The position numbers and the translations under genes were made by a program. Below the pieces are notes generated by a model, which was not told the origin of the DNA, made no database searches, and saw nothing but the letters and a program-made list of their open reading frames with translations. 32,445 bases of DNA from Chitinophagaceae bacterium (lineage in GTDB: Bacteria > Bacteroidota > Bacteroidia > Chitinophagales > REEL01), in assembly GCA_007695095.1 (NCBI GenBank), contig REEL01000070.1, forward strand, positions 1 through 32,445, in the 5' to 3' direction. This document shows positions 2,302-27,752 of this stretch, piece after piece (within the stretch, counting starts at the first letter, position 1; every line of letters starts with the position of its first letter).

Positions 2302-3546
2302 TTAATAAAAGAAAGAAAGTCCAAAACTTCCAATAAGGGCTTTCCCTTTATAACTGCCTCCCAGTCCTGCATAATTAAGCTCAGTTTTTTCAGTTCTTTG
2401 CATAGTTTCGGTATACAAAACACTTAAATCTGCCATAAGTGATTTGCCTAATTTAAAACTTAAGCCGGCACTAAGACCAATTCTATCTGAATCAGGTGTT
2501 TCAGGGGATAAAAAATTATCCTGCACAGGAGTCATGTCAAAATAGGTTCCAAAACGTATTATTAAATTATTAGCAGGTTTATAACTCCCTCCAAATCGAA
2601 AAGCAAAATTATTTTTATAAAGGCGGGGTTCTCTGGTATCATTTAAAACGCTTGTTGTATTTTCAAATTGAACAATTAAAGAGTCATAGGATGACCAGCC
2701 GGTATAATTTAGATCAAAGTTTAAGCTAAATTTTTCACTTGGTTTAACTTGAATACCCAAACCGGTATGAAAAGGTAATCGTAATCTGGTAGAAATATTT
2801 CCATCAGGAAAAGAATCTCTCAAAAGTGCAGGAACATTAAAAGTAGCAGTACCATCATTAGGCGCTACATCTACATTTGATATAAATGAAACGCCCAGAT
2901 TTATAAAATCGTTTAAATCATAAAAAATACCTGCATTAAACCCCCAACCTATAGCATTGCCTTCCAACAAGACTTCTCCGTCAGTCATATCATTAATAGC
3001 TAAGGGTATATCTTTTCTTATTAAAACATCTCCGTAAGCCAATATTGGCCCAAGACCGATGCCTAATCTTTCAGTAACTTTATAGCTAACTGTAGGCTGA
3101 AAATAGAATGTTTTTAAATCTATCTCACTGGTAACAAAGCGACCCGGCCAATGGTCCTGCCAATCCAAATTGTTTCCGAAGGGATTGTAAATTCCCATTC
3201 CGACTCTCCATCTGCTTGTTGAGTCTAGTGCCCAGTCTCCATAAAAATATAAAGGGAAAGAGTTCCCATATTCATTAGTATATTTTTGTCCTGAAATTTC
3301 ATCTTCAAATTCCATTCTTAAATCTACTAAACTGAAACCGCTTATTATAGAGCGCTTGGGGTTGTGAACTAAAGAACCCGGATTAAAATATATTCCGGAT
3401 GCATTTTCAGCATTTGCTATTCCGGTATGCCCCATGGCAATATTTCCGGCTGCATTTAAAGAAATTTGAAATCCACCGGCTTTTAATGAAGTTGAAGTCA
3501 CCTGTAATATAATCAGTAAGATTGCAAACGATAGGTAATACTTCAT
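2302..3546 (-). CDS. OmpP1/FadL-family outer membrane transport protein
   Basis: A 414-residue beta-barrel protein with a Sec signal peptide (cleavage likely after LKA, near residue 23). The mature start GGFQISLNAAGNIAMGHTG followed by ENASGIYFNPGSL is the hallmark N-terminal plug region of FadL/TodX porins, which import long-chain fatty acids and other hydrophobic molecules. Many alternating aromatic strands follow, and the protein ends in Phe-Tyr (GLSFFY), a typical outer-membrane barrel terminus. The SGNH-like lipoprotein gene follows after 2 bp, so the pair is one transcription unit. Substrate is not known. Family call is firm. Confidence 0.92.
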   Translation of the reverse strand: MKYYLSFAILLIILQVTSTSLKAGGFQISLNAAGNIAMGHTGIANAENASGIYFNPGSLVHNPKRSIISGFSLVDLRMEFEDEISGQKYTNEYGNSFPLYFYGDWALDSTSRWRVGMGIYNPFGNNLDWQDHWPGRFVTSEIDLKTFYFQPTVSYKVTERLGIGLGPILAYGDVLIRKDIPLAINDMTDGEVLLEGNAIGWGFNAGIFYDLNDFINLGVSFISNVDVAPNDGTATFNVPALLRDSFPDGNISTRLRLPFHTGLGIQVKPSEKFSLNFDLNYTGWSSYDSLIVQFENTTSVLNDTREPRLYKNNFAFRFGGSYKPANNLIIRFGTYFDMTPVQDNFLSPETPDSDRIGLSAGLSFKLGKSLMADLSVLYTETMQRTEKTELNYAGLGGSYKGKALIGSFGLSFFY

Positions 3547-7769: not shown

Positions 7770-8720
7770 CTATTTATTTTTCAATAAATTGTAGTTTTTA
7801 AAGCCTAAAATTTCTTCTCCGCCAAAAAATGTATTCTCTATTAACGTCATAAATCGGTTTTTAAATCGCTCATGTCTGTGTTCTTTTCTTTTTTTATTGT
7901 CACTTCCGGTATAGTTTAACATATCTGCCCAATCAAAACTTTCTATTTTGTTTTGCATAACAGCCGGATGTGTTTCTTTGAACTTCTCGAGCTTTCCTAA
8001 TGGACCGTAGTCAAAAAGGGCAAACTCTTTTTTATTTTTTTCATCAGCACCTCTACTTTGATGAATATCAGCCAAAGCTTTAGTTTTATTTTGCATAAAA
8101 TCAGGTGGTCTGACAAACCCGTAATGATATATCTCAGCGTCTACCAAAGCCACATTTAATTTATAAGTACCTTCTTTTTGTCTGTAATTTAACATATCAA
8201 ATCCCGGAATTCTTCTAAAAGACTGAGCCGATTCCCAGGAATGAATTTCAGGATCATTTCGGACAATTCTTATTTCATAGGGATACCAGCCATGGGCTCT
8301 ATGATAGTGATTGTAATCGCCCCAAAAATGTTTGTATTTAAATAGTAAACCTTCTACTTCTTTGTCTTCATATAGTTCTTCACACCTTTTGGTAATGACA
8401 TCCAGATATTTTTCATGAACCACTTCATCAGCTTGCAAATAAAAAAGCCAGTCTCCTGTGCATGCTGATTTTGCTATGTCTGTTTGGTGTGCATTTTCCA
8501 TACCCCGAGGATATTTTTTTAAATCCCATTTGGTATGTATTATTTTGATTTTTGAAGAGTTAATACCTTCAATAATTTCTATGGTTTTATCATCTTCATC
8601 ACAATCGCCTACAGCAATTACAAATTCATCAACTATTGGGAGGATTGATTGGATAGCTTCTTTAATTGGATAATACAGCTTATATCCGTTTTTTACCATT
8701 GAAAAACCACTAATTTTCAT
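7770..8720 (-). CDS. Glycosyltransferase, GT2-like (GT-A fold)
   Basis: A 316-residue cytosolic protein. It starts with the GT-A pattern ISGFSMVKNG, continues with VDEFVIAVGDCDEDDK (nucleotide-binding region), and has GDWLFYLQADEVVHEKY near residue 92, where ADE takes the place of the metal-binding DxD. Beyond about residue 130 the sequence is rich in Trp, Tyr and His and resembles other uncharacterised Bacteroidota family 2 transferases. No transmembrane segment is seen. It is the last gene of a three-gene unit (10 bp after the exonuclease gene). Donor and acceptor sugars cannot be inferred. Confidence 0.8.
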   Translation of the reverse strand: MKISGFSMVKNGYKLYYPIKEAIQSILPIVDEFVIAVGDCDEDDKTIEIIEGINSSKIKIIHTKWDLKKYPRGMENAHQTDIAKSACTGDWLFYLQADEVVHEKYLDVITKRCEELYEDKEVEGLLFKYKHFWGDYNHYHRAHGWYPYEIRIVRNDPEIHSWESAQSFRRIPGFDMLNYRQKEGTYKLNVALVDAEIYHYGFVRPPDFMQNKTKALADIHQSRGADEKNKKEFALFDYGPLGKLEKFKETHPAVMQNKIESFDWADMLNYTGSDNKKRKEHRHERFKNRFMTLIENTFFGGEEILGFKNYNLLKNK

Positions 8721-10124: not shown

Positions 10125-11069
10125 ATGGAAAACAAAATGGACAAAGGAAAAGAAAAAAACAATAGCAAAAGGCCATTATATATCGGCTTAATTGTTTTGT
10201 TGTTACTGATTAACGGGTTTTTAGCCTATAATACGCTTTCTACTAAGAAGAAAGCGGATCAGTTAGAAATTGAAAGAACTGAATTGCAGACAATGTATGA
10301 CAGCGTTTTGGTGGAATACAATTTGACAAAAGCCGATATTGAGGAGTTAATGGGAATTAATGATGAACTTGACAGAGAGCTGGAAATGAGACTTGCAGAG
10401 TTGGAAAGTGCAAGAACTGAAATTGAAGATTTGCTTCAAAAAAATCAGGTTACTTCCAGACAGTTAGCCGATGCTCAGCGATTAATCAGGAGCTTAAGAG
10501 CAGAGAATGAGCGTTTCGCAAGTCAAATTGATTCACTAACGACTGTAACTGCAGATTTGATGTTGGAGAGAGAGTCGCTTACAGCAGATTTGGAGCAGGA
10601 GAGAAATATCAGACAGGAATTGCAAGATGAGCGAGTAGGGCTTTCAAGAAAAGTTGAATTAGGTTCTCTTTTTGATTTAGAAGGTTTAGAGGCCGAGGGT
10701 GTACGCTATAGAAATAATGGAAGAGAAGTAAGTACTAGAAATTCCAGAAGAGTTGAGAAATTAAAAGTTTGTTTTACAGCTCTGGAAAATAGAGTTGCAG
10801 ATGAAGGACAGAAAAGCTTACATATCAGGATTATAAGTCCGGAAGGTTCAACAATTGCAGTTCAAAACCTTGGTTCAGGTACGTTTGTAAATGCTGAAAC
10901 CGGAGAGCAAATGCAATTCACAACTAAGGCTGATTTTGATTATCAGGGAGACTCCAGAAATTTATGTGTGTATTGGTCACAAACAGCTGCCTTTTCCGGA
11001 GGCAATTACAATGTTGAGATTTATCAGTCAGGTTATTTAATTGATAAAACTGAATTCAGTTTGAGATAA
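10125..11069 (+). CDS. Membrane-anchored coiled-coil protein of unknown function
   Basis: A 314-residue protein I do not recognise at family level. Order of parts: a short Lys-rich cytosolic N-terminus, one transmembrane helix (about residues 18-36, LYIGLIVLLLLINGFLAYN), a long charged coiled coil (about 40-175, rich in Glu, Leu, Arg, Asp), then a beta-rich C-terminal domain (about 195-314) with SLHIRIISPEG and NYNVEIYQSGYLIDK. By the positive-inside rule the coiled coil and C-domain lie in the periplasm. Met5 could be an alternative start. Own promoter box at 10092 and strong terminator at 11097, so it is a single-gene unit. Perhaps an envelope scaffold; this is only inference from shape. 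Confidence 0.82.
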   Translation: MENKMDKGKEKNNSKRPLYIGLIVLLLLINGFLAYNTLSTKKKADQLEIERTELQTMYDSVLVEYNLTKADIEELMGINDELDRELEMRLAELESARTEIEDLLQKNQVTSRQLADAQRLIRSLRAENERFASQIDSLTTVTADLMLERESLTADLEQERNIRQELQDERVGLSRKVELGSLFDLEGLEAEGVRYRNNGREVSTRNSRRVEKLKVCFTALENRVADEGQKSLHIRIISPEGSTIAVQNLGSGTFVNAETGEQMQFTTKADFDYQGDSRNLCVYWSQTAAFSGGNYNVEIYQSGYLIDKTEFSLR

Positions 11070-18599: not shown

Positions 18600-21500
18600 T
18601 TAGCGAAGCAGGGTAACGTTACCATACTTCTCAACTATCTGACCATTTCCACAAGTTGCTCTTACATGATAAGCGAAAACATCAGCATTTAGCATTATGC
18701 CATTATGTCTTCCATCCCAACCCTGGCTCATATCATTCGTTTCAAATAAAAGCTCACCCCAACGGTTGAATATTCTAAAGAAGATAATATCCTGTACTTC
18801 TCTTGAGCGAACATAAACTTTATCATTAATCTCATCTCCATTAGGTGTAAATGTATTCGGGACAAAAATATCAGCACCACATTCGGTAATTGTAGTTATG
18901 TATAAGCTGTCTCTTGCTACACAACCATATTCATCAGTAACATTAACGTGTACATAGCCATCATTTTCCGCAAAATAAGTTGTTTGAGGGCACTCAGGAC
19001 AATCAATGTTTTCATATGGCTCCCACTCATAAATCCAACTGTTATTGTTAGGAGTAGCTTGCAAGTCAACAGTTGAGCCGCTGACAACTATCTGGTCATT
19101 ACCTGCATTTACATGTGGCGGTAAATAAACATTTACAGTAACGCTATGAGTGTCAGGTGCGCAGCTTCCACTGTATACTATAATAGAGTATTCAGTATTT
19201 TGAGTAGGGCTGACTACCGGATTTAAAACACCCTGTCCGATTTCTTCAGCAGGTAACCAAACAAAGCCGGTACCTAAACTACTACTGTCTAATATCTCTG
19301 CCTGTAATTCAACGCTTTGACCCAGACATATATCATAGTGTTCTGTAACTGATACATCCAATACATCTATAACATTTACTACAACTGCATCCTGATTTGT
19401 ACAACCGAATTCATTTTCGACTTCCACGAAATAGATATCTTGTCCACTTGCAGTCACTTCTATATCTTCTGTGTTTGCTAAAAGATCGCCGCTAATATTA
19501 AACCATGAAAAATGGACAGCTGTTTCAGAGTAAGCTGAAATAATAGTTTCATCATCTTCGCATAGAGTTAAATCCGGAGAAGTTTGAACATCAGGAATTG
19601 GATTTACTATAACACTTAAGCTATCCTGTCCAAAACAACCAAATTGATTTATGGCAACTACATTATAAACAGTATTGTAAACAGGACTTACTTCCGGGTT
19701 TGGGCAATCAGTACAACTCATCTCAGTACCAACCCAGCTGTAGAAAAGTGCACCATTTGCATCTAAAGTAGCTGTTTCGCCAAGACATATTTCAATATCC
19801 GGGCCGGCATCAATTTCCGGTTTAGGGTGAATAACAACCTGAACACTATCTCTAACAATGCAATTTGGTGTGTAATATACTTCAAGTATGTATTGAGTTG
19901 TAGAATCAGGTTTAGCAATTACAGTAGTGCAATCTTCACAATTCAAACTTTCTGAAGGGCTCCAGCTGATATCGCCGTCACCATATGCCTGTATAGTTAC
20001 TTGCTGATCCGGACAAACAGCAAATGGGCCATTTAATATTCCACCGTTAATACTATCTGTAATTACATTAATGTTCTCTACATGAACACATCCGTTATTA
20101 TCTGTTATTGTTAACTCATAAATACCACCGGATAAATTGAATAAGTCTGTACCATTTTGTCCGTTATCCCAGTTAAATTGATAAGGAGCGTTTCCACCAA
20201 AGGCAAAAGTAGTTATATATCCGTCTTTTGCATCCGGGCATGACTCATTTGTTACAGCATATATACTTTCTATAGGTGCTGGTTCTACTATTGGAATGCT
20301 ATCAGCATTAATTGTACATCCGTTATCATCAACTACTGCCAGGTCATAATAGCCGGGAGTCAATGATAATATGGTAGAATCTGTAGACCCGGTATTCCAA
20401 AGATAACTATAAGGCGCTGTTCCACCTCCGGCAAAAGCATAAATTGCTCCGTTATCTTCTCCAAAACATCTTATATCGTGAGTATCAATTGTTAGCTCCA
20501 AATCAAGCGGTTCTAGAATCTCTACCTGACTTAAAACAAATTCACACTCATTAGAATCAGTAATAATCACTTCATAAGTCCCGGCAGTAAGATCTATTGC
20601 TGTTTCTGTAACCTGTACAGGGCTTGTAAGCCATTCGTAGGTATAAGGACTTGTTCCTCCGCTTGGCAGAACTGTGGCAGAGCCGTCATTTCCACCAAAA
20701 CAACTTACATCTGTCGTTGAAACAATAGCATCTATAGGTGTCGGTTCGAATATTTCCAAACTTTGAACAGAAATACAATTATTAGCATCTTCAATAGTTA
20801 CTTCATAGTTACCGGCATATAGATTTGTAACCTGAGGAGTAGTTTGTGGTGGGCTTGTATTCCACAGGTAAGTGTACCCACCTACTCCACCAAAAGCTGT
20901 AACGCTTGCAGTTCCATCACTTCCATTGAAGCAGCTCACATCTTCAGTAATCGTGTTTATTGCTATAGAGTCCGGTTGTGAAACTATTGCATTAGCTGAT
21001 ATTAAACAGTTATTTTGATCATTTACAATTACATTATAATTCCCAGCCGGTAAATTAGTTGCAGTAGAATCAGTTTGTGTCGGATTAGTATCCCAAATAT
21101 ATGAATATTGACCGGTGCCCCCTGTTACAGTTGCATTTACTTCACCGTCAAAATATCCAAAGCAGCTCACATCAGCAACCTGAGTACTGATTTCAAGTTC
21201 ATCCGGTTGATTTATCTCAGCAGTAATTATGGATTCACACATGTTTGAATCTAAAACGCTTACCGTATAAGTACCAATTCCCAAATTAGTTGCTAAAGCT
21301 GAATTTTGTACAGGATTGGTATTCCATTCATAGGTATAATTTCCGACCCCACCTATAGCATGAACTTCAGCTGAACCATTTGTTTCACCAAAACATAATA
21401 CATCTTCAGTTACCAAAGTCAGCGTTATTGAGTCCGGTTGTGTTACTTCTACTGTTCCGGTTGACTCACAAAGTAAACTATCTCTAACGATTACACTATA

Positions 21501-24500
21501 AAATCCGCTTTCTAACTGTGTTGCAGTAGTAGTATTTTGAGTGGGACTACTTAACCACTCATATGTATAACCTCCATTACCACCATTGGCAATAACACTG
21601 GCAGTTCCATTATTTTCTCCAAAGCAAGCAACAGGAGTTGAAGAAAGTTGTAAAACAATTGGATCGGGTTCTGTCAGCTCTATACTCTGTATTTGCTCAC
21701 AACTGTTTTCATCAGTTACTGTAACATTATAGTGACCTGCCACTAAATTGCTTGCAGTTTGTGTATACTGAGTAGGAATAGAACTCCAGTAATATTGATA
21801 TCCGGGTGTTCCTCCTACAGGATTTACCGTTATTGAACCATCGCTTTCTCCATTACAACTTACCGGTATGATATCATAATGTATTATTATTGAATCGGGT
21901 TGAGAGATTTCTATTGAATCTGTTATTAAACAGTTATTTGCATCTATAGCGGTAAGATTGTACCAACCGGCTGATAATGAATTGATAGAATCACTATTTT
22001 GCACCGGATTAGTGTTCCATTGATAAGAATAGGGAGCAGTTCCACCTGATATAATTGTTGATGCAAAACCGTCAGAACCATCAAAACAAGTAACATCTGA
22101 AGAAGTAATATCTGAAGTTAAAGGTGCCGGTTCCGTTATTTCTGCCGTCACAGATATTTCACAATTGTTACTGTCTCTAACAATCACTGTATACATATCA
22201 GCTGTTAAATTTATGGCAGTTTCTGTAAATTGAGGAGGATTTGTATTCCATTCATAAGTATAATTACCTACACCTCCATTAGCTGAAACAGTTGCCAATC
22301 CGTCATTCCCTTCATAACAGCTTACGTTTTCAGTGCTTACTGTAGCTGAAAGAGTATCGGGTTGAAATACTTCAACATCACCACTTATCAAACAGTTATT
22401 TCCATCTGTTACTTCAACAGTGTAAGTTCCTGCAAATAAATTTTGTGCAACAGAATCAGTTTGAGGAGGATTTGTCAACCAATTGTATTGATAATTACCC
22501 ACGCCTCCACTTGCATTGACGGTTGCGGTACCATCATCAAAACCAAAGCAGCTAACATCTGTAGAAGCAAAGCTTAGCTCTAATGGATCCGGTTGGCTAA
22601 GAGTTACACTATCAGTCAAAACGCAATTATTTGCATCAGTAACAATCAAAACATAAGTTCCAATCTCTAATTGTGAAATTGAAGACCCTGAAGAAACAGG
22701 ATTAGTATTCCACTGATAAGTATATGGAGCAGTTCCTCCGGAAATATTTGCATCTATGGATCCATCATTTCCTTCAAAACAACTAATGTTTTCCGAATCA
22801 AAAACAACCTCAAGATTATTAGGTTGATTAATTGTGAAGTCAACCGTATGCAAACAATTCATAGAGTCTACAATTGTTACTGAATGGTTGCCGGCTGTCA
22901 ATCCACTGATAGAGTTACTGTTTATTGTTGAATCAGCACTCCATATAAATGAATAAGGTGATGTTCCACCAAAAGCTGAAATAGAAGCGGTACCGTCACT
23001 TCCATTAAAGCAACTAACATCAGTTGTAACCAAATCGTGTGTAATGGCATCCGGTTCTGAAATCGTAATGCTGTCTGTTATCTCACAAGAATTTTCATCT
23101 GTTACCAAAACCTGATAAGTGCCGGCTGTTAAATCATTTGCCACTTGTGTTTGCTGAGTTGGGTTGGTGTCCCAACTAAAGCTGTAGCTTGGTGTTCCAC
23201 CGGAAACTAAAGCAGTTATTTGTCCATCGTTTCCTTCAAAACAACTTACATCTATAGTTTCAAATGCTAAGTTTAAAGGATCCGGTTGGTTGATTTGCAA
23301 AGTTGTATCACTAAAGCATCCGTTGCCGTCAGTAACTGTTACTGTATAGCTGCCGATACTAAGGTTAGTTGCTACTGAATCATTTTGTGAAGGATAAGTA
23401 CTCCATACATAGTCATAACTTCCATTTCCTCCTTGCCCGCTAACGATAGCCATACCATCATTCCCGTCAAAACAGCTTACATCTTTTATACTATCAATGC
23501 TTACAAAAGGGACATCATTTATTAGTATGTTGACAGATTCGCTATTGACACAGTTGTTTGCATCAGTAACTATAACAGTATATGTATTGTTATTTACAGG
23601 TGCTGCTGTTGGGTTTTGACAATTTAAACAACTTAAAGTTGAATCACTTACCCACTGGTAATTTACTCCTCCGTCTGCAAATAAATCCACAGTTTCTCCC
23701 GGGCATATTGCTGTATCCGGACTTATGCTAACGGTTGGAAGCTGATTTACAACTACTTCAATCAGAGCACTGGACTGACAATTGTTTGTGTCTGTTACCA
23801 CTACTGTATAAGTAGTTGTAGTAGTTGGAAATGCAAAAGGTGATGAAGTGTTACTTCCGATTAGTGAAGCAGAAGGAGACCAATCGTATGATATTCCACC
23901 ACCGGCATTTAATTGCACAGTGTCTCCCGTACAAATGATTTCATCATTTCCGGTTGTAACTATTGGTAAATCAAGAATTTCAATTTCTCTTGTAAAAACA
24001 TCCTGACAGCCATTTATATTTGTTACGCTGAGTGTAATTGTATATTGACCTGCAGTGGTATAAGTATGAACCGGGTTCTGGCTGGTAGAAGTTTGTCCGT
24101 CACCAAAATCCCATTCCCAGCTTTGTATAGGATGTAAAGAAGTACTTTCGTCAGTAAAAATAACTGTTGCCGGTCTGCAAACTACAGAATCCGATTTTGA
24201 AAAATCAGCTACCGGTCCCGGATCAACTTCTAAGAAAGCAGGCAATGTCAAGGTATCGCTGCAAATATCATTTGCTACATATAGGGTAACGTCATAAACT
24301 CCGGCTGCACCATAATTATGTACAGGTGAAAAACTATTAGATGTATTGCCGTCTCCAAAGTGCCATTCCACATAGTTTAGAGCCGGTTCAGATGTTGTAA
24401 GGTTTCCAAAATATACATCTCCGGGCTCACATAATAAATTAGAATTTGAAGTAAAATCAGGCTGAATAGTTCCAACAACTATTGAATCCGGGCTTGGAAC

Positions 24501-27500
24501 AGAAAACTGACAACCAATTCCATTATCAAGTATCAATACCGGATAAAAAACACCCGGATTTGTATAAGTATGCGTAGTAGTAGAGTCTGATGATGATGTT
24601 ACACTTCCATCTCCAAAATCCCAGGTATAAAAAGCCGTATTTTCAGAAGTTGCTTCAAAATTCACTTCCAAATCTGTACAACCAATATTTACATCAAAAA
24701 CAAATTCTCCAAGAGGACCGTTAATTACCGTTTGTTCCGGAATAAAAATAGTATCAGTACATCCAAACTCACTGGTTACTATTAAAGTCAAATCGAATCC
24801 TCCGGGTAAAGTATAGATGTGCGAAGGGTCTTGCATATTACTTCCACTACCATCTCCAAAATCCCATTGCCATTGATTTACAAAGCCTGTGGAAGCATCT
24901 TCAAAATTCACCAATAAAGGTGGACAAGTTGCAAAATTTGTATCGGCCACGAATCCGGCTACAGGATCTTCAATCCAGACGTAGTCATCGTAAGTAATAG
25001 TACTGTCGCAACCATTTTCATCAGTTACGGTAAGTGAAACGCTAAAAAAGCCTTCAGTTAAGTAGCTGTGAACCGGGTTTTCGTCAGTACTGGTATTTCC
25101 ATCTCCAAAGTCCCAAAACCAGCTTAGCCCGTTACCGGTAGATTGATTGTTAAAGCTCACAGGGGCTCCGGTACAAGAAATGGTGTCACCGGTAAAAGCC
25201 GGAGAAGGAAATGTTACTTCTATTAAGTCCGGGTATGTTATGTTATTCACACAACCATTGTCATCTTCAACTTCCAGTGTTACCGTAAAAACTCCGTTTT
25301 GTGTATACGTGTGAGAAGTATTTTCACCACTACCTGTATTTCCGTCTCCAAAATCCCAGTTGTAACTTAAAACATTACCTCCAAAATTTAATGTAGAGCT
25401 CTCAAAATCAACTTCAAGAGGCCTGCAACCAACCAGAGGGTCGGCAGTAAAATCTACCTGTGTACCTAATACGGTAACATATTCTTCAATGATTAAAGTG
25501 TCAGTACAACCATTAACATCTTCTATGATAAGCGATACATCATAAACACCCGGTGTATTATAGATAAAGTTAGGGTTTTGTTGGTTTGATGTTATGCCAC
25601 CGCTTGTCCATGTCCAGTTATTTGCATCTGTAGAACTATCTGTGAATTGAACATTCAGAGGAGCGCAGCCAATAAGAGGATCCCCGGAAAAATTAGCCTC
25701 GGGATCTGTTATGGTCACCGACATGCTGTAGGTGTCTTCACAGCCTGAAGGTATATGTTCGACAGTTAAACTAATAGTATAATTGCCTGTAGATGCATAA
25801 GTATGCGTAGGGTTTTGGTCAGTACTTGTATTTCCGTCACCGAAATCCCAGAACCAGGTATCAGGAGCCAGGGATAAATCATTAAACTCTATGAAGTAAG
25901 GAGTATCACAACTTCTCACAATTTCAAATTCTGCCCTTGGCGGTGCAATGTAAATGTAATCCGGAATGATAAGTGTATCCGGACAGCCTAAATTATATGT
26001 TATTAAGCTGACATCAAAGGATCCGGTATCATTATATGTATAGGTTGGGTTTTGATCCCATGACGTACCGCCATCTCCAAATTGCCAAAACCATTGATCT
26101 CCAACGTTAGATAAATCAGTAAAACTGATAGGATCTTCAAGGCATGCTTGAGTAGGAGTACCTACAAAATCAACAATTGGTGGCTCACCTACCATGATAT
26201 AATCTGCAATAGTAATTGTATCTGAACAACCTAAATCATTCATAACAATTAAACTAACGTCATAGATACCCTCATCTTCATAAGTATGAAGAGGGTTTTG
26301 AGCAGTGCTTGTATTTCCATCGCCAAAATCCCATATCCATGAGGTTGCCGCCGGGTTTATGTTTGATAAGTCTGTGAACTGAACATCTAAAGGTATACAA
26401 CCTTGTGTCGTATCAGAGGTGAAATTTGCAACCGGATCCTCAATGTTTATATAGTCAGGCAGCGTTAAAGTTTGGCTACAACCATTGATGTCAGTAACTT
26501 CTAAAGTAACATTAAAGCTTCCGAACTGCTGATATGTATGAGTTGGATTTTCTTGTGTGGATGTGTTGCCGTCTCCAAAATTCCATTGATAATCGACAAT
26601 GTCAGGAGTGTGATTGGTAAATCCAACCTGAAAAGGAGTACTGCAAAAATCTGTTTCATCGGCACTAAAATCAACAATAGGTGATGGCAAAACATTTATG
26701 TAAGTAGTTTTGGTCTCGATTCCATAACAACCAAGTGAATTCCATGCTTGTAGTGATATCGTATAAAATCCCGGGCTGGTAAATACTTTAGTTGGATTTT
26801 GAAGACTACTGCTAGTCCCATCTCCAAAGTCCCAGTTCCACGAAGTTGTAGATGAACTGCTTGTATTATTAAATTGAATTGATTGACCTTCACAAGCAGT
26901 AGTGTTAGTAACGTTAAAATCAACATCTATTGGCTCTATGTTGATGTAGTCATAGTATGTAATCTGATTGGAGCAGCCATTATTATCTGTAACCGTTAGA
27001 GTTACATCGTAATTGCCAAATTGATTGTATGTATTAGTAGGCGTTGGATCGGATGATGTATCTCCATTTCCAAAATCCCATTCAAAAGTATAATTTGATA
27101 TGGGGGATATATTTGGTGTAAACTGTACTTCATGTGGTATTAGACAAGAGTTTGGTTCGTCAGCTGTGAAATTAGCATCAGGAAGCGGACTAACTTGTAT
27201 ATAATTACTGAAAGTTCTTTCATGTCTGCAACCATTGGCATCAACTGTTACTAATGTTACATGATAACTGCCGGAAGAAGTGTAAGTATGAGTTGGGTTT
27301 TGTTGATTGCTGGAGCTTCCGTCTCCAAAGTTCCAGTTGTAGGTTGTAATAGGTGCTGACCCTACTGTTGTGAGGTCTGAAAAGTTTACTGTAAGTGGAG
27401 CGCAGCCTGATAAAACATCTGCTTCAAAGTTAACATTAGGATTTTCAAAAACAGTTATGTAATTTGGCCTGACTAAGGTGTCGAAATTAGTGCCATCACT

Positions 27501-27752
27501 TACAACCAGTGTAACATCATAGGTCCCCGGAGTTATGTAAACAGCCCCCGGGTTCTGTTGAAGAGATTGATTGCCATTGCCAAAAAACCATCTTTGATAA
27601 GTGATATTTCCGGTTGATTGGTTATTAAACTGTACAACCAGCGGACTACAATCTTGGGTATTATTAGCAGTAAAGTCAGCAACAACTTGTGCTTCTGACA
27701 GTCCTACAAATAGTAAGAAAGATATTAAAAAGGTGTAAAAATTTCGAACCAT
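18600..27752 (-). CDS. Giant secreted PKD/SprB-repeat protein with T9SS type B C-terminal domain
   Basis: A 3050-residue surface or secreted protein. Order: signal peptide (1-21, cut after SEA); 15 PKD domains of about 82 residues (22-1256; core WDFGDGNTS-x-NP-x-HTY); two Ig-like domains (1257-1419); 15 SprB repeats of about 77 residues (1420-2568; core VSCF-x-GNDG, GG-x-x-x-Y-x-Y-x-W, DxNxC, QPD); five Ig-like domains (about 2569-2955); and a gliding motility-associated/CHU_C C-terminal domain (2956-3050) opening with ADIFVPNTFTPNGDEIND and containing IFNRWGELLFET and WDGRHNG. This last domain directs export by the type IX system (type B sorting). SprB itself is the mobile gliding adhesin of Flavobacterium johnsoniae; a role in adhesion or cell-surface filaments is inferred. 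No PorP/SprF partner gene is adjacent. No frame break is seen over 9.1 kb. Confidence 0.95.
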   Translation of the reverse strand: MVRNFYTFLISFLLFVGLSEAQVVADFTANNTQDCSPLVVQFNNQSTGNITYQRWFFGNGNQSLQQNPGAVYITPGTYDVTLVVSDGTNFDTLVRPNYITVFENPNVNFEADVLSGCAPLTVNFSDLTTVGSAPITTYNWNFGDGSSSNQQNPTHTYTSSGSYHVTLVTVDANGCRHERTFSNYIQVSPLPDANFTADEPNSCLIPHEVQFTPNISPISNYTFEWDFGNGDTSSDPTPTNTYNQFGNYDVTLTVTDNNGCSNQITYYDYINIEPIDVDFNVTNTTACEGQSIQFNNTSSSSTTSWNWDFGDGTSSSLQNPTKVFTSPGFYTISLQAWNSLGCYGIETKTTYINVLPSPIVDFSADETDFCSTPFQVGFTNHTPDIVDYQWNFGDGNTSTQENPTHTYQQFGSFNVTLEVTDINGCSQTLTLPDYINIEDPVANFTSDTTQGCIPLDVQFTDLSNINPAATSWIWDFGDGNTSTAQNPLHTYEDEGIYDVSLIVMNDLGCSDTITIADYIMVGEPPIVDFVGTPTQACLEDPISFTDLSNVGDQWFWQFGDGGTSWDQNPTYTYNDTGSFDVSLITYNLGCPDTLIIPDYIYIAPPRAEFEIVRSCDTPYFIEFNDLSLAPDTWFWDFGDGNTSTDQNPTHTYASTGNYTISLTVEHIPSGCEDTYSMSVTITDPEANFSGDPLIGCAPLNVQFTDSSTDANNWTWTSGGITSNQQNPNFIYNTPGVYDVSLIIEDVNGCTDTLIIEEYVTVLGTQVDFTADPLVGCRPLEVDFESSTLNFGGNVLSYNWDFGDGNTGSGENTSHTYTQNGVFTVTLEVEDDNGCVNNITYPDLIEVTFPSPAFTGDTISCTGAPVSFNNQSTGNGLSWFWDFGDGNTSTDENPVHSYLTEGFFSVSLTVTDENGCDSTITYDDYVWIEDPVAGFVADTNFATCPPLLVNFEDASTGFVNQWQWDFGDGSGSNMQDPSHIYTLPGGFDLTLIVTSEFGCTDTIFIPEQTVINGPLGEFVFDVNIGCTDLEVNFEATSENTAFYTWDFGDGSVTSSSDSTTTHTYTNPGVFYPVLILDNGIGCQFSVPSPDSIVVGTIQPDFTSNSNLLCEPGDVYFGNLTTSEPALNYVEWHFGDGNTSNSFSPVHNYGAAGVYDVTLYVANDICSDTLTLPAFLEVDPGPVADFSKSDSVVCRPATVIFTDESTSLHPIQSWEWDFGDGQTSTSQNPVHTYTTAGQYTITLSVTNINGCQDVFTREIEILDLPIVTTGNDEIICTGDTVQLNAGGGISYDWSPSASLIGSNTSSPFAFPTTTTTYTVVVTDTNNCQSSALIEVVVNQLPTVSISPDTAICPGETVDLFADGGVNYQWVSDSTLSCLNCQNPTAAPVNNNTYTVIVTDANNCVNSESVNILINDVPFVSIDSIKDVSCFDGNDGMAIVSGQGGNGSYDYVWSTYPSQNDSVATNLSIGSYTVTVTDGNGCFSDTTLQINQPDPLNLAFETIDVSCFEGNDGQITALVSGGTPSYSFSWDTNPTQQTQVANDLTAGTYQVLVTDENSCEITDSITISEPDAITHDLVTTDVSCFNGSDGTASISAFGGTSPYSFIWSADSTINSNSISGLTAGNHSVTIVDSMNCLHTVDFTINQPNNLEVVFDSENISCFEGNDGSIDANISGGTAPYTYQWNTNPVSSGSSISQLEIGTYVLIVTDANNCVLTDSVTLSQPDPLELSFASTDVSCFGFDDGTATVNASGGVGNYQYNWLTNPPQTDSVAQNLFAGTYTVEVTDGNNCLISGDVEVFQPDTLSATVSTENVSCYEGNDGLATVSANGGVGNYTYEWNTNPPQFTETAINLTADMYTVIVRDSNNCEISVTAEITEPAPLTSDITSSDVTCFDGSDGFASTIISGGTAPYSYQWNTNPVQNSDSINSLSAGWYNLTAIDANNCLITDSIEISQPDSIIIHYDIIPVSCNGESDGSITVNPVGGTPGYQYYWSSIPTQYTQTASNLVAGHYNVTVTDENSCEQIQSIELTEPDPIVLQLSSTPVACFGENNGTASVIANGGNGGYTYEWLSSPTQNTTTATQLESGFYSVIVRDSLLCESTGTVEVTQPDSITLTLVTEDVLCFGETNGSAEVHAIGGVGNYTYEWNTNPVQNSALATNLGIGTYTVSVLDSNMCESIITAEINQPDELEISTQVADVSCFGYFDGEVNATVTGGTGQYSYIWDTNPTQTDSTATNLPAGNYNVIVNDQNNCLISANAIVSQPDSIAINTITEDVSCFNGSDGTASVTAFGGVGGYTYLWNTSPPQTTPQVTNLYAGNYEVTIEDANNCISVQSLEIFEPTPIDAIVSTTDVSCFGGNDGSATVLPSGGTSPYTYEWLTSPVQVTETAIDLTAGTYEVIITDSNECEFVLSQVEILEPLDLELTIDTHDIRCFGEDNGAIYAFAGGGTAPYSYLWNTGSTDSTILSLTPGYYDLAVVDDNGCTINADSIPIVEPAPIESIYAVTNESCPDAKDGYITTFAFGGNAPYQFNWDNGQNGTDLFNLSGGIYELTITDNNGCVHVENINVITDSINGGILNGPFAVCPDQQVTIQAYGDGDISWSPSESLNCEDCTTVIAKPDSTTQYILEVYYTPNCIVRDSVQVVIHPKPEIDAGPDIEICLGETATLDANGALFYSWVGTEMSCTDCPNPEVSPVYNTVYNVVAINQFGCFGQDSLSVIVNPIPDVQTSPDLTLCEDDETIISAYSETAVHFSWFNISGDLLANTEDIEVTASGQDIYFVEVENEFGCTNQDAVVVNVIDVLDVSVTEHYDICLGQSVELQAEILDSSSLGTGFVWLPAEEIGQGVLNPVVSPTQNTEYSIIVYSGSCAPDTHSVTVNVYLPPHVNAGNDQIVVSGSTVDLQATPNNNSWIYEWEPYENIDCPECPQTTYFAENDGYVHVNVTDEYGCVARDSLYITTITECGADIFVPNTFTPNGDEINDKVYVRSREVQDIIFFRIFNRWGELLFETNDMSQGWDGRHNGIMLNADVFAYHVRATCGNGQIVEKYGNVTLLR
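20049..23495 (-). repeat. Array of 15 SprB repeats (protein-level)
   Basis: Codes residues 1420-2568 of the giant protein: 15 modules of 74-78 residues, each with a Cys in the opening VSCF-like motif and almost always a second Cys in DxNxC near the end. Modules differ at many positions, so the array is old rather than freshly duplicated. Best preserved are GGVGNYTYEWNTNP (modules 6 and 10) and GGTAPYSYQWNTNPV-like stretches (modules 4 and 7). Confidence 0.9.
23985..27689 (-). repeat. Array of 15 PKD domains (protein-level)
   Basis: Codes residues 22-1256: 15 beta-sandwich modules of 78-86 residues with the core W-x-FGDG. Most carry one Cys before the second strand (GC-x-PL-x-V-x-F) and one near the end (NGC), suggesting a disulphide per module. 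Module 1 lacks the second Cys, and module 9 has WTWTSGG where WDFGDG is expected. At DNA level the complement of the WDFGDG core (for example CCATCTCCAAAATCCCA) recurs but is interrupted by divergence. Confidence 0.9.

Follow-up and report, generated by a model that had tools for sequence, protein, structure and literature searches.

On the window, the whole 32,445-nucleotide stretch of DNA analysed here, a single giant gene encodes what appears to be a conserved T9SS surface protein enlarged by an insertion. We propose, at a probability of about 0.62, that an array of SprB modules was spliced into a conserved protein made of 15 PKD domains, seven Ig-like domains and a type B C-terminal sorting domain (CTD), and that the product is a surface fibre with a distal PKD head, a stalk of SprB and Ig-like modules and a C-terminal anchor. 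Sequence comparison establishes the insertion site, the descent and identity of the PKD modules, the recurrence of arrays in relatives and the presence of a T9SS and PorP/SprF genes in the genome; the function assigned to the fibre is our reading of these results. The anatomy of the protein is firmly established, and its evolutionary history provides a clearer finding, and one of wider scope, than the symmetry of module counts to which the preliminary description of this DNA drew attention. PKD heads of this kind occur in about half of the order's sampled genomes, yet our searches of the literature on PKD domains and T9SS type B proteins found no study of this head family.

Domain anatomy of the 3050-residue protein

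ORF calling in the window finds one open frame with an ATG start and 3050 codons for amino acids. The preliminary description had listed 15 PKD, two Ig-like, 15 SprB and five Ig-like domains followed by a type B sorting domain, with no mixing of modules, and this description is exact: Pfam and NCBIfam recognise the domains, and the order is reproduced by our own HMMs, which were built from modules of the protein itself (Table 1). The domain count by HMM that the description had suggested as a check gives 15 stretches of PKD_4 (E=6e-212), 15 PKD domains of PF00801 and 15 SprB domains (E=4e-145), together with Ig_7 and CHU_C; TIGR04131 clears its NCBIfam cut-off of 35 bits, so that a type B sorting domain is present. 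These domain scores exclude chance. Our own models return the architecture PKDx15 Igx2 SprBx15 Igx5 CTD and find no interleaved or hidden extra module in the protein. The residues AQ (21-22) at the end of the predicted signal peptide are invariant across 10 aligned homologues, and the domain content supports the earlier view of a T9SS-exported surface protein composed of two separate blocks. The supported Pfam matches are PKD, SprB, Ig_7 and CHU_C, with no recognised adhesive domain among them. A match to the polycystin model TIGR00864 was rejected, as it falls far under its cut-off and is due to the PKD repeats alone.

Table 1. Features of the giant gene, in positions of the window and residues of the encoded protein.
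Feature	Residues	Positions	Strand	Basis
Whole ORF, giant T9SS type B protein		18600..27752, stop included	-	Pfam, NCBIfam
Sec-type signal peptide, ends ...EAQ (predicted)	1-22	27687..27752	-	sequence by eye and homologue alignment
PKD block, 15 modules, conserved N-terminal head common to the PKD13-15 family	23-1260	23973..27686	-	HMMs, alignment, AF2 model
Ig-like 1 and 2	1262-1415	23508..23969	-	Ig_7; homologues are Ig1-2 in the PKD15-Ig7 relatives
Inserted SprB array, 15 modules, 77-aa period	1416-2568	20049..23507	-	Pfam, motifs, alignment, AF2 model of modules 5-6
Ig-like 3 to 7	2572-2962	18867..20039	-	own HMMs and alignment to PKD15-Ig7 relatives
Type B T9SS C-terminal sorting/anchoring domain	2963-3050	18603..18866	-	TIGR04131 52.9 bits, CHU_C 47.8 bits

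Both arrays are regular in spacing and diverged in sequence. By motif position, the PKD cores lie at residues 55, 140, 225, 307, 390, 474, 556, 635, 715, 799, 880, 963, 1044, 1130 and 1214, the core of the ninth module being altered, and the SprB modules begin at residue 1424 and recur every 77 residues, with slips of one to two residues in the last two. Pairs of PKD modules are on average 38% identical (maximum 53%) and pairs of SprB modules 40% (maximum 57%). TRF detects no tandem repetition of module length in the DNA, and no offset within either array stands out as a sign of block duplication (permutation P=0.28 for SprB, 0.48 for PKD). The modules are not recent copies; because they have diverged and the DNA lacks a tandem repeat of module size, collapse or expansion of the arrays during assembly is unlikely. 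The protein is very acidic (388 D+E vs 31 K+R). With the module borders used here, every SprB module (15/15) and 14/15 PKD modules hold two cysteines, which suggests one disulfide per module.

Descent of the PKD block and insertion of the SprB array

The PKD block is a conserved family in its own right, an ancient and strictly ordered row of domains whose number, 15, is fixed by descent. A search of 60 relatives yields ORFs co-linear with residues 5-1416 at 35-50% identity, most of them without SprB. Refined HMM architecture calls recognise a leading run of 13-16 PKD modules in 123 ORFs (15 modules in 85, 14 in 21, 13 in 12 and 16 in 5), some clades carrying 13 or 14 modules in place of 15. 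We define the PKD13-15 head family, in this analysis, by 13-15 PKD modules that match by position-specific HMMs; the window protein is one of its 85 members with 15 modules. Such models place held-out modules correctly in 97% of cases (five-fold, 85 proteins) against 7% by chance, a figure inflated by close relatives; the safer value is the 62-87% obtained, against the same 7%, when models trained on the two largest families only are scored on other families. For the window protein, 10 of the 15 modules are correctly placed by models from two other families only. That every module keeps its identity across families is unusual and suggests selection on the whole block.

At a threshold of E<=1e-30, a probe made from PKD11-13 matches in 202 of 398 genomes of the order (Chitinophagales, GTDB) and in 175 of 395 sampled genomes of the class, a match alone not being equivalent to a complete head, since in family f23 the matches fall in PKD-only giants. 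The ORFs of that family (G599, G714, G480, G694, G398; loci L234-L239) consist almost wholly of PKD modules, each ORF holding from 29 to at least 69. Another family, f18, carries in one genus three tandem PKD15-Ig genes in each of three genomes (G238:C69, G294:C102, G354:C302; loci L219-L221); because each copy groups in the tree with its counterparts in the other genomes, the tandem is older than the species split.

The SprB array has a different history. The nearest relatives of the window protein are PKD15-Ig7-CTD proteins of about 1910-1950 residues, one of which is encoded in the same genome (contig C112, locus L036). Once residues 1416-2568 are removed, the remainder aligns to PKD15-Ig7 relatives over about 1890 columns at 43-46% identity and with no internal gap of five or more residues, the exception being the N-terminus around the start codon, where the relatives' ORFs were taken from stop to stop. 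Because this alignment is nearly gap-free, the array was inserted into an existing protein, between Ig2 and Ig3. The Ig-like pair, which had been regarded as a spacer between the blocks, is not purpose-made: it comprises the first two of seven ancestral Ig-like domains, split from Ig-like 3-7 by the insertion. Measured against four relatives, the PKD block is 47-50% identical, Ig1-2 36-44%, Ig3-7 30-32% and the CTD 49-63%; the two ends are conserved and the middle is free. PKD-block trees pair the window protein with its SprB-free paralogue L036 (support 0.995 and 1.0) and nest the pair among SprB-free PKD15-Ig7 proteins. Because one genome holds two paralogues that align almost without gaps, one with SprB and one without, the effect of adding SprB modules can be studied in a clean natural experiment, which is hard to do in the 669-kDa SprB itself.

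The SprB modules, unlike the PKD modules, show no positional match to other SprB arrays; a search of viral contigs for the Ig2-SprB1 join returns no relatives; and gene order is not shared between the window locus and PKD15-Ig7 loci in other families. The genome assembly is a draft in 186 contigs, and the family of the window is otherwise unrepresented in the genome sample.

SprB arrays recur behind the same head. Relatives with the same PKD block carry 5, 9, 10, 13, 23, at least 36 and at least 54 SprB modules. Four giants of genus g38 (family f3) begin with PKD15-Ig1 and continue with at least 23 SprB and many Ig-like domains; they measure 3120 (ending at a contig end), 5374, 6579 and 7785 residues, and two of the stretches that carry them are likewise truncated. 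Outside the order, families f45 and f46 have the layout PKD14-SprB(5-13)-PKD2-CTD, in which Pfam finds 4-12 SprB stretches. Most proteins of the PKD13-15 family lack SprB, and parsimony on a 71-tip tree requires at least three gains from a SprB-free root, a lower bound under a tree with several weak deep nodes rather than an observed rate. In further relatives this region holds arrays of up to 17 Ig-like domains or additional PKD modules; the stretch behind the head is thus a common site of module gain.

These results alter how the arrangement is to be read. The preliminary description had attached meaning to the equal size of the two blocks; as the PKD number is fixed by descent (15 in 85 of 123) and the SprB number in relatives is free (5 to at least 54), we reject designed symmetry and regard 15 = 15 as a coincidence. 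Its remark that the arrangement was unfamiliar holds for the exact string PKD15-Ig2-SprB15-Ig5-CTD, found only in the window protein among the architectures called, and does not hold for the layout of PKD head, SprB array and sorting domain, which recurs in at least two other clades; with the window's own, three separate clades bear SprB.

Predicted structure, export and proposed role

AlphaFold2 models SprB modules 5-6 as all beta at a pLDDT of 97.6 and PKD1-14 at a pLDDT of 86.5 and a pTM of 0.32, which indicates well-formed PKD beads whose mutual placement is unsettled in the model. Among solved structures, the best match of the SprB model is a fragment of GhpA, and that of the PKD model is the GhpA neck (E=1e-38; global TM low). 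The protein is very probably an extended string of beads, given the confident all-beta modules; of the extended rod suggested earlier this much stands, the rod shape itself being unproven at such a pTM. The 'two different faces' attributed to that rod do not fit, for the blocks run end to end, one after the other. With some 37 beads of about 3.5-4 nm, a typical size for Ig and PKD beads, the fibre would be about 130-150 nm long.

The genome encodes a T9SS (SprA, 2747 bits; PorU, 1375 bits), 14 PorP/SprF matches and 32 type B CTDs. A cognate PorP/SprF neighbour is usual for type B cargo, and orphans are known in F. johnsoniae. PorP/SprF genes directly adjoin PKD13-15 genes in several relatives; the 32-kb contig of the window holds none. 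The gene is flanked by housekeeping genes, an M3 oligoendopeptidase on one side and murB on the other, and the next gene downstream in its direction of transcription is the oligoendopeptidase, on the other strand, with no sprF there. With respect to PorP/SprF the gene is an orphan. PorP-like barrels retain type B CTD proteins on the cell surface in F. johnsoniae and P. gingivalis (PMC9143113); secretion and destination are decided by the type B CTD with its shuttle, and substrates without an adjacent shuttle gene exist (PMC12618676).

Near PorU and a PorP/SprF gene, the genome also contains a GldJ-like gene, whose match of 383 bits lies below the family cut-off of 458. The SprB load of this 3.5-Mb genome is heavy, with 147 matches on many ORFs and contigs; on contig C94 a protein with 23 SprB modules has a PorP/SprF gene directly behind it. 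Elsewhere in the window, ORFs of 316 and 314 residues (7770-8720, -, and 10125-11069, +) have no Pfam match at E<=1e-5.

In the mechanism that we propose, the protein would be exported by Sec and then by the T9SS, and its CTD would keep it bound to a PorP/SprF-like barrel. Because the anchor is C-terminal, we infer that the PKD block forms the distal end, where it may act as a functional head for adhesion or capture; we call it a head for its conservation and position, not for a known binding fold. The SprB and Ig-like region would serve as a swappable stalk, the reach of the head being set by the number of modules, and one predicted disulfide per module may add to the stalk's rigidity. A broader and more tentative proposal, possible at best, is that the PKD13-15 block forms an order-dependent working tip of widespread Bacteroidia T9SS surface fibres, to which different lineages have time and again added stalks of SprB, Ig or PKD modules that change its reach, and that some lineages could use the tip in prey capture or gliding, like GhpA or SprB.

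Alternative readings and known systems

The roles of head and stalk could be reversed, with the SprB array as the working part, binding for example polysaccharide or surfaces like the gliding adhesin SprB, and the PKD block as a rigid carrier rod. SprB repeats take their name from that adhesin, some 147 of them occur in many proteins of this genome, at least one with PorP/SprF directly behind (C94), PKD domains are often spacers, and the SprB array could itself bind. However, no other long part of the protein is as well conserved as the PKD block, whose module order and number are kept across families, as a generic spacer would not need; most family members do without SprB, and those that have it range from 5 to 54 modules. 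We consider this reversal unlikely.

Nor do we think it probable that the protein is a mobile gliding adhesin, moved along the cell by the T9SS motor as in F. johnsoniae, with its SprB modules a by-product of that role. Type B CTDs can suffice to direct cargo to the gliding machinery (PMC12618676), and both the GldJ-like gene described above and the absence of a porE-like gene beside the window gene would suit such a function, but the GldJ match stays below its cut-off (383 vs 458 bits), the sprF-like neighbour is absent, SprB is missing from most relatives that share this head, and mobility is not something that sequence can reveal.

The wide variation in length among relatives and the strong acidity, as in matrix proteins, would also be expected of a passive filament of a matrix or surface layer whose blocks have no separate functions and gain modules by the neutral drift of long repeat proteins; conserved ends around a free middle, and PKD modules that keep their positional identity and near-fixed number across families, argue instead for selection on the head and make this quite improbable. 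An assembly artefact, in which a PKD15 gene and an SprB gene of the same genome were misjoined, keeps only a very small residual probability: although SprB and PKD paralogues are numerous in the 186-contig draft, the reading frame runs through without a stop, each join keeps the frame and coincides with a module border, array modules at most 57% identical cannot easily mislead an assembler, and PKD heads with SprB occur in two other clades in other genomes.

SprB, the gliding adhesin of Flavobacterium johnsoniae, is a 669-kDa protein with a type B CTD, and SprF is its cognate barrel. The window protein resembles it in its SprB repeats, giant size, signal peptide and type B CTD, and differs in the ordered PKD head, most relatives of which lack SprB, in the Ig-like domains around the array and in having no sprF-like gene beside it. 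This comparison is one of sequence features and claims no orthology; with a different head and no sprF-like neighbour, an SprB orthologue was rejected as an identification, and the two proteins may still work alike.

The array is matched, at some 30% identity, by the whisker (wac) proteins of pseudo-T-even phages RB16, RB43 and Lw1, and also by a phage neck-whisker protein of solved structure (9occ, E=6.5e-4); SprB-like modules therefore occur in phage whiskers as well. LR756502.1 (642 kb, deposited as uncultured phage) carries at L254:6918-11942 (+) a 1675-residue ORF with 13 SprB modules, Ig, PKD and a type B sorting domain (50.0 bits against a cut-off of 35) and the same tail as the f45 proteins; this phage-deposited record encodes a protein addressed to the host's T9SS. 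A second such record, LR745206.1 (635 kb, deposited as uncultured phage), has at L255:6552-9050 (+) an 833-residue ORF with Ig, PKD and a type B sorting domain (45.8 bits against 35) and a weak glycine-rich ALK/LTK-like match.

GhpA, the grappling hook protein A of Aureispira sp. CCB-QB1 (Saprospiraceae; PDB 9flp and others), shares with the window protein its giant size, its phylum and its chains of Ig-like beads, and members of the Saprospiraceae presumably fall within the window's GTDB order. By phmmer, GhpA matches the whole window protein at E=4e-47, owing to the Ig-like modules and the C-terminal Ig/CTD region; neither the PKD block with Ig1-2 alone nor the SprB block alone matches it. 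Kinship in sequence being limited to those parts, GhpA is ruled out as a full-length homologue, and a similar mode of action may still apply. It has been described as a T9SS-secreted hook (PMC11205867).

The Periscope Proteins (PMC8201768, PMC9704523) offer a third parallel, with a head on a tandem-repeat stalk, an anchor at the far end and a module number that varies among relatives. Their stalk repeats, however, are highly identical and vary between strains, whereas the SprB modules here are on average 40% and at most 57% identical and the variation is seen between species and families. A Periscope Protein was on this account rejected as an identification; the two could nevertheless operate alike.

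The closest counterparts are Chitinophagales PKD15-Ig-CTD proteins such as those of Chitinophaga cymbidii (L089) and Niastella vici (L142). These direct homologues have the same 15 ordered PKD modules and sorting domain and, in place of an SprB array, 1 to 17 Ig-like domains. The window protein is a variant of known T9SS fibrillar surface proteins.
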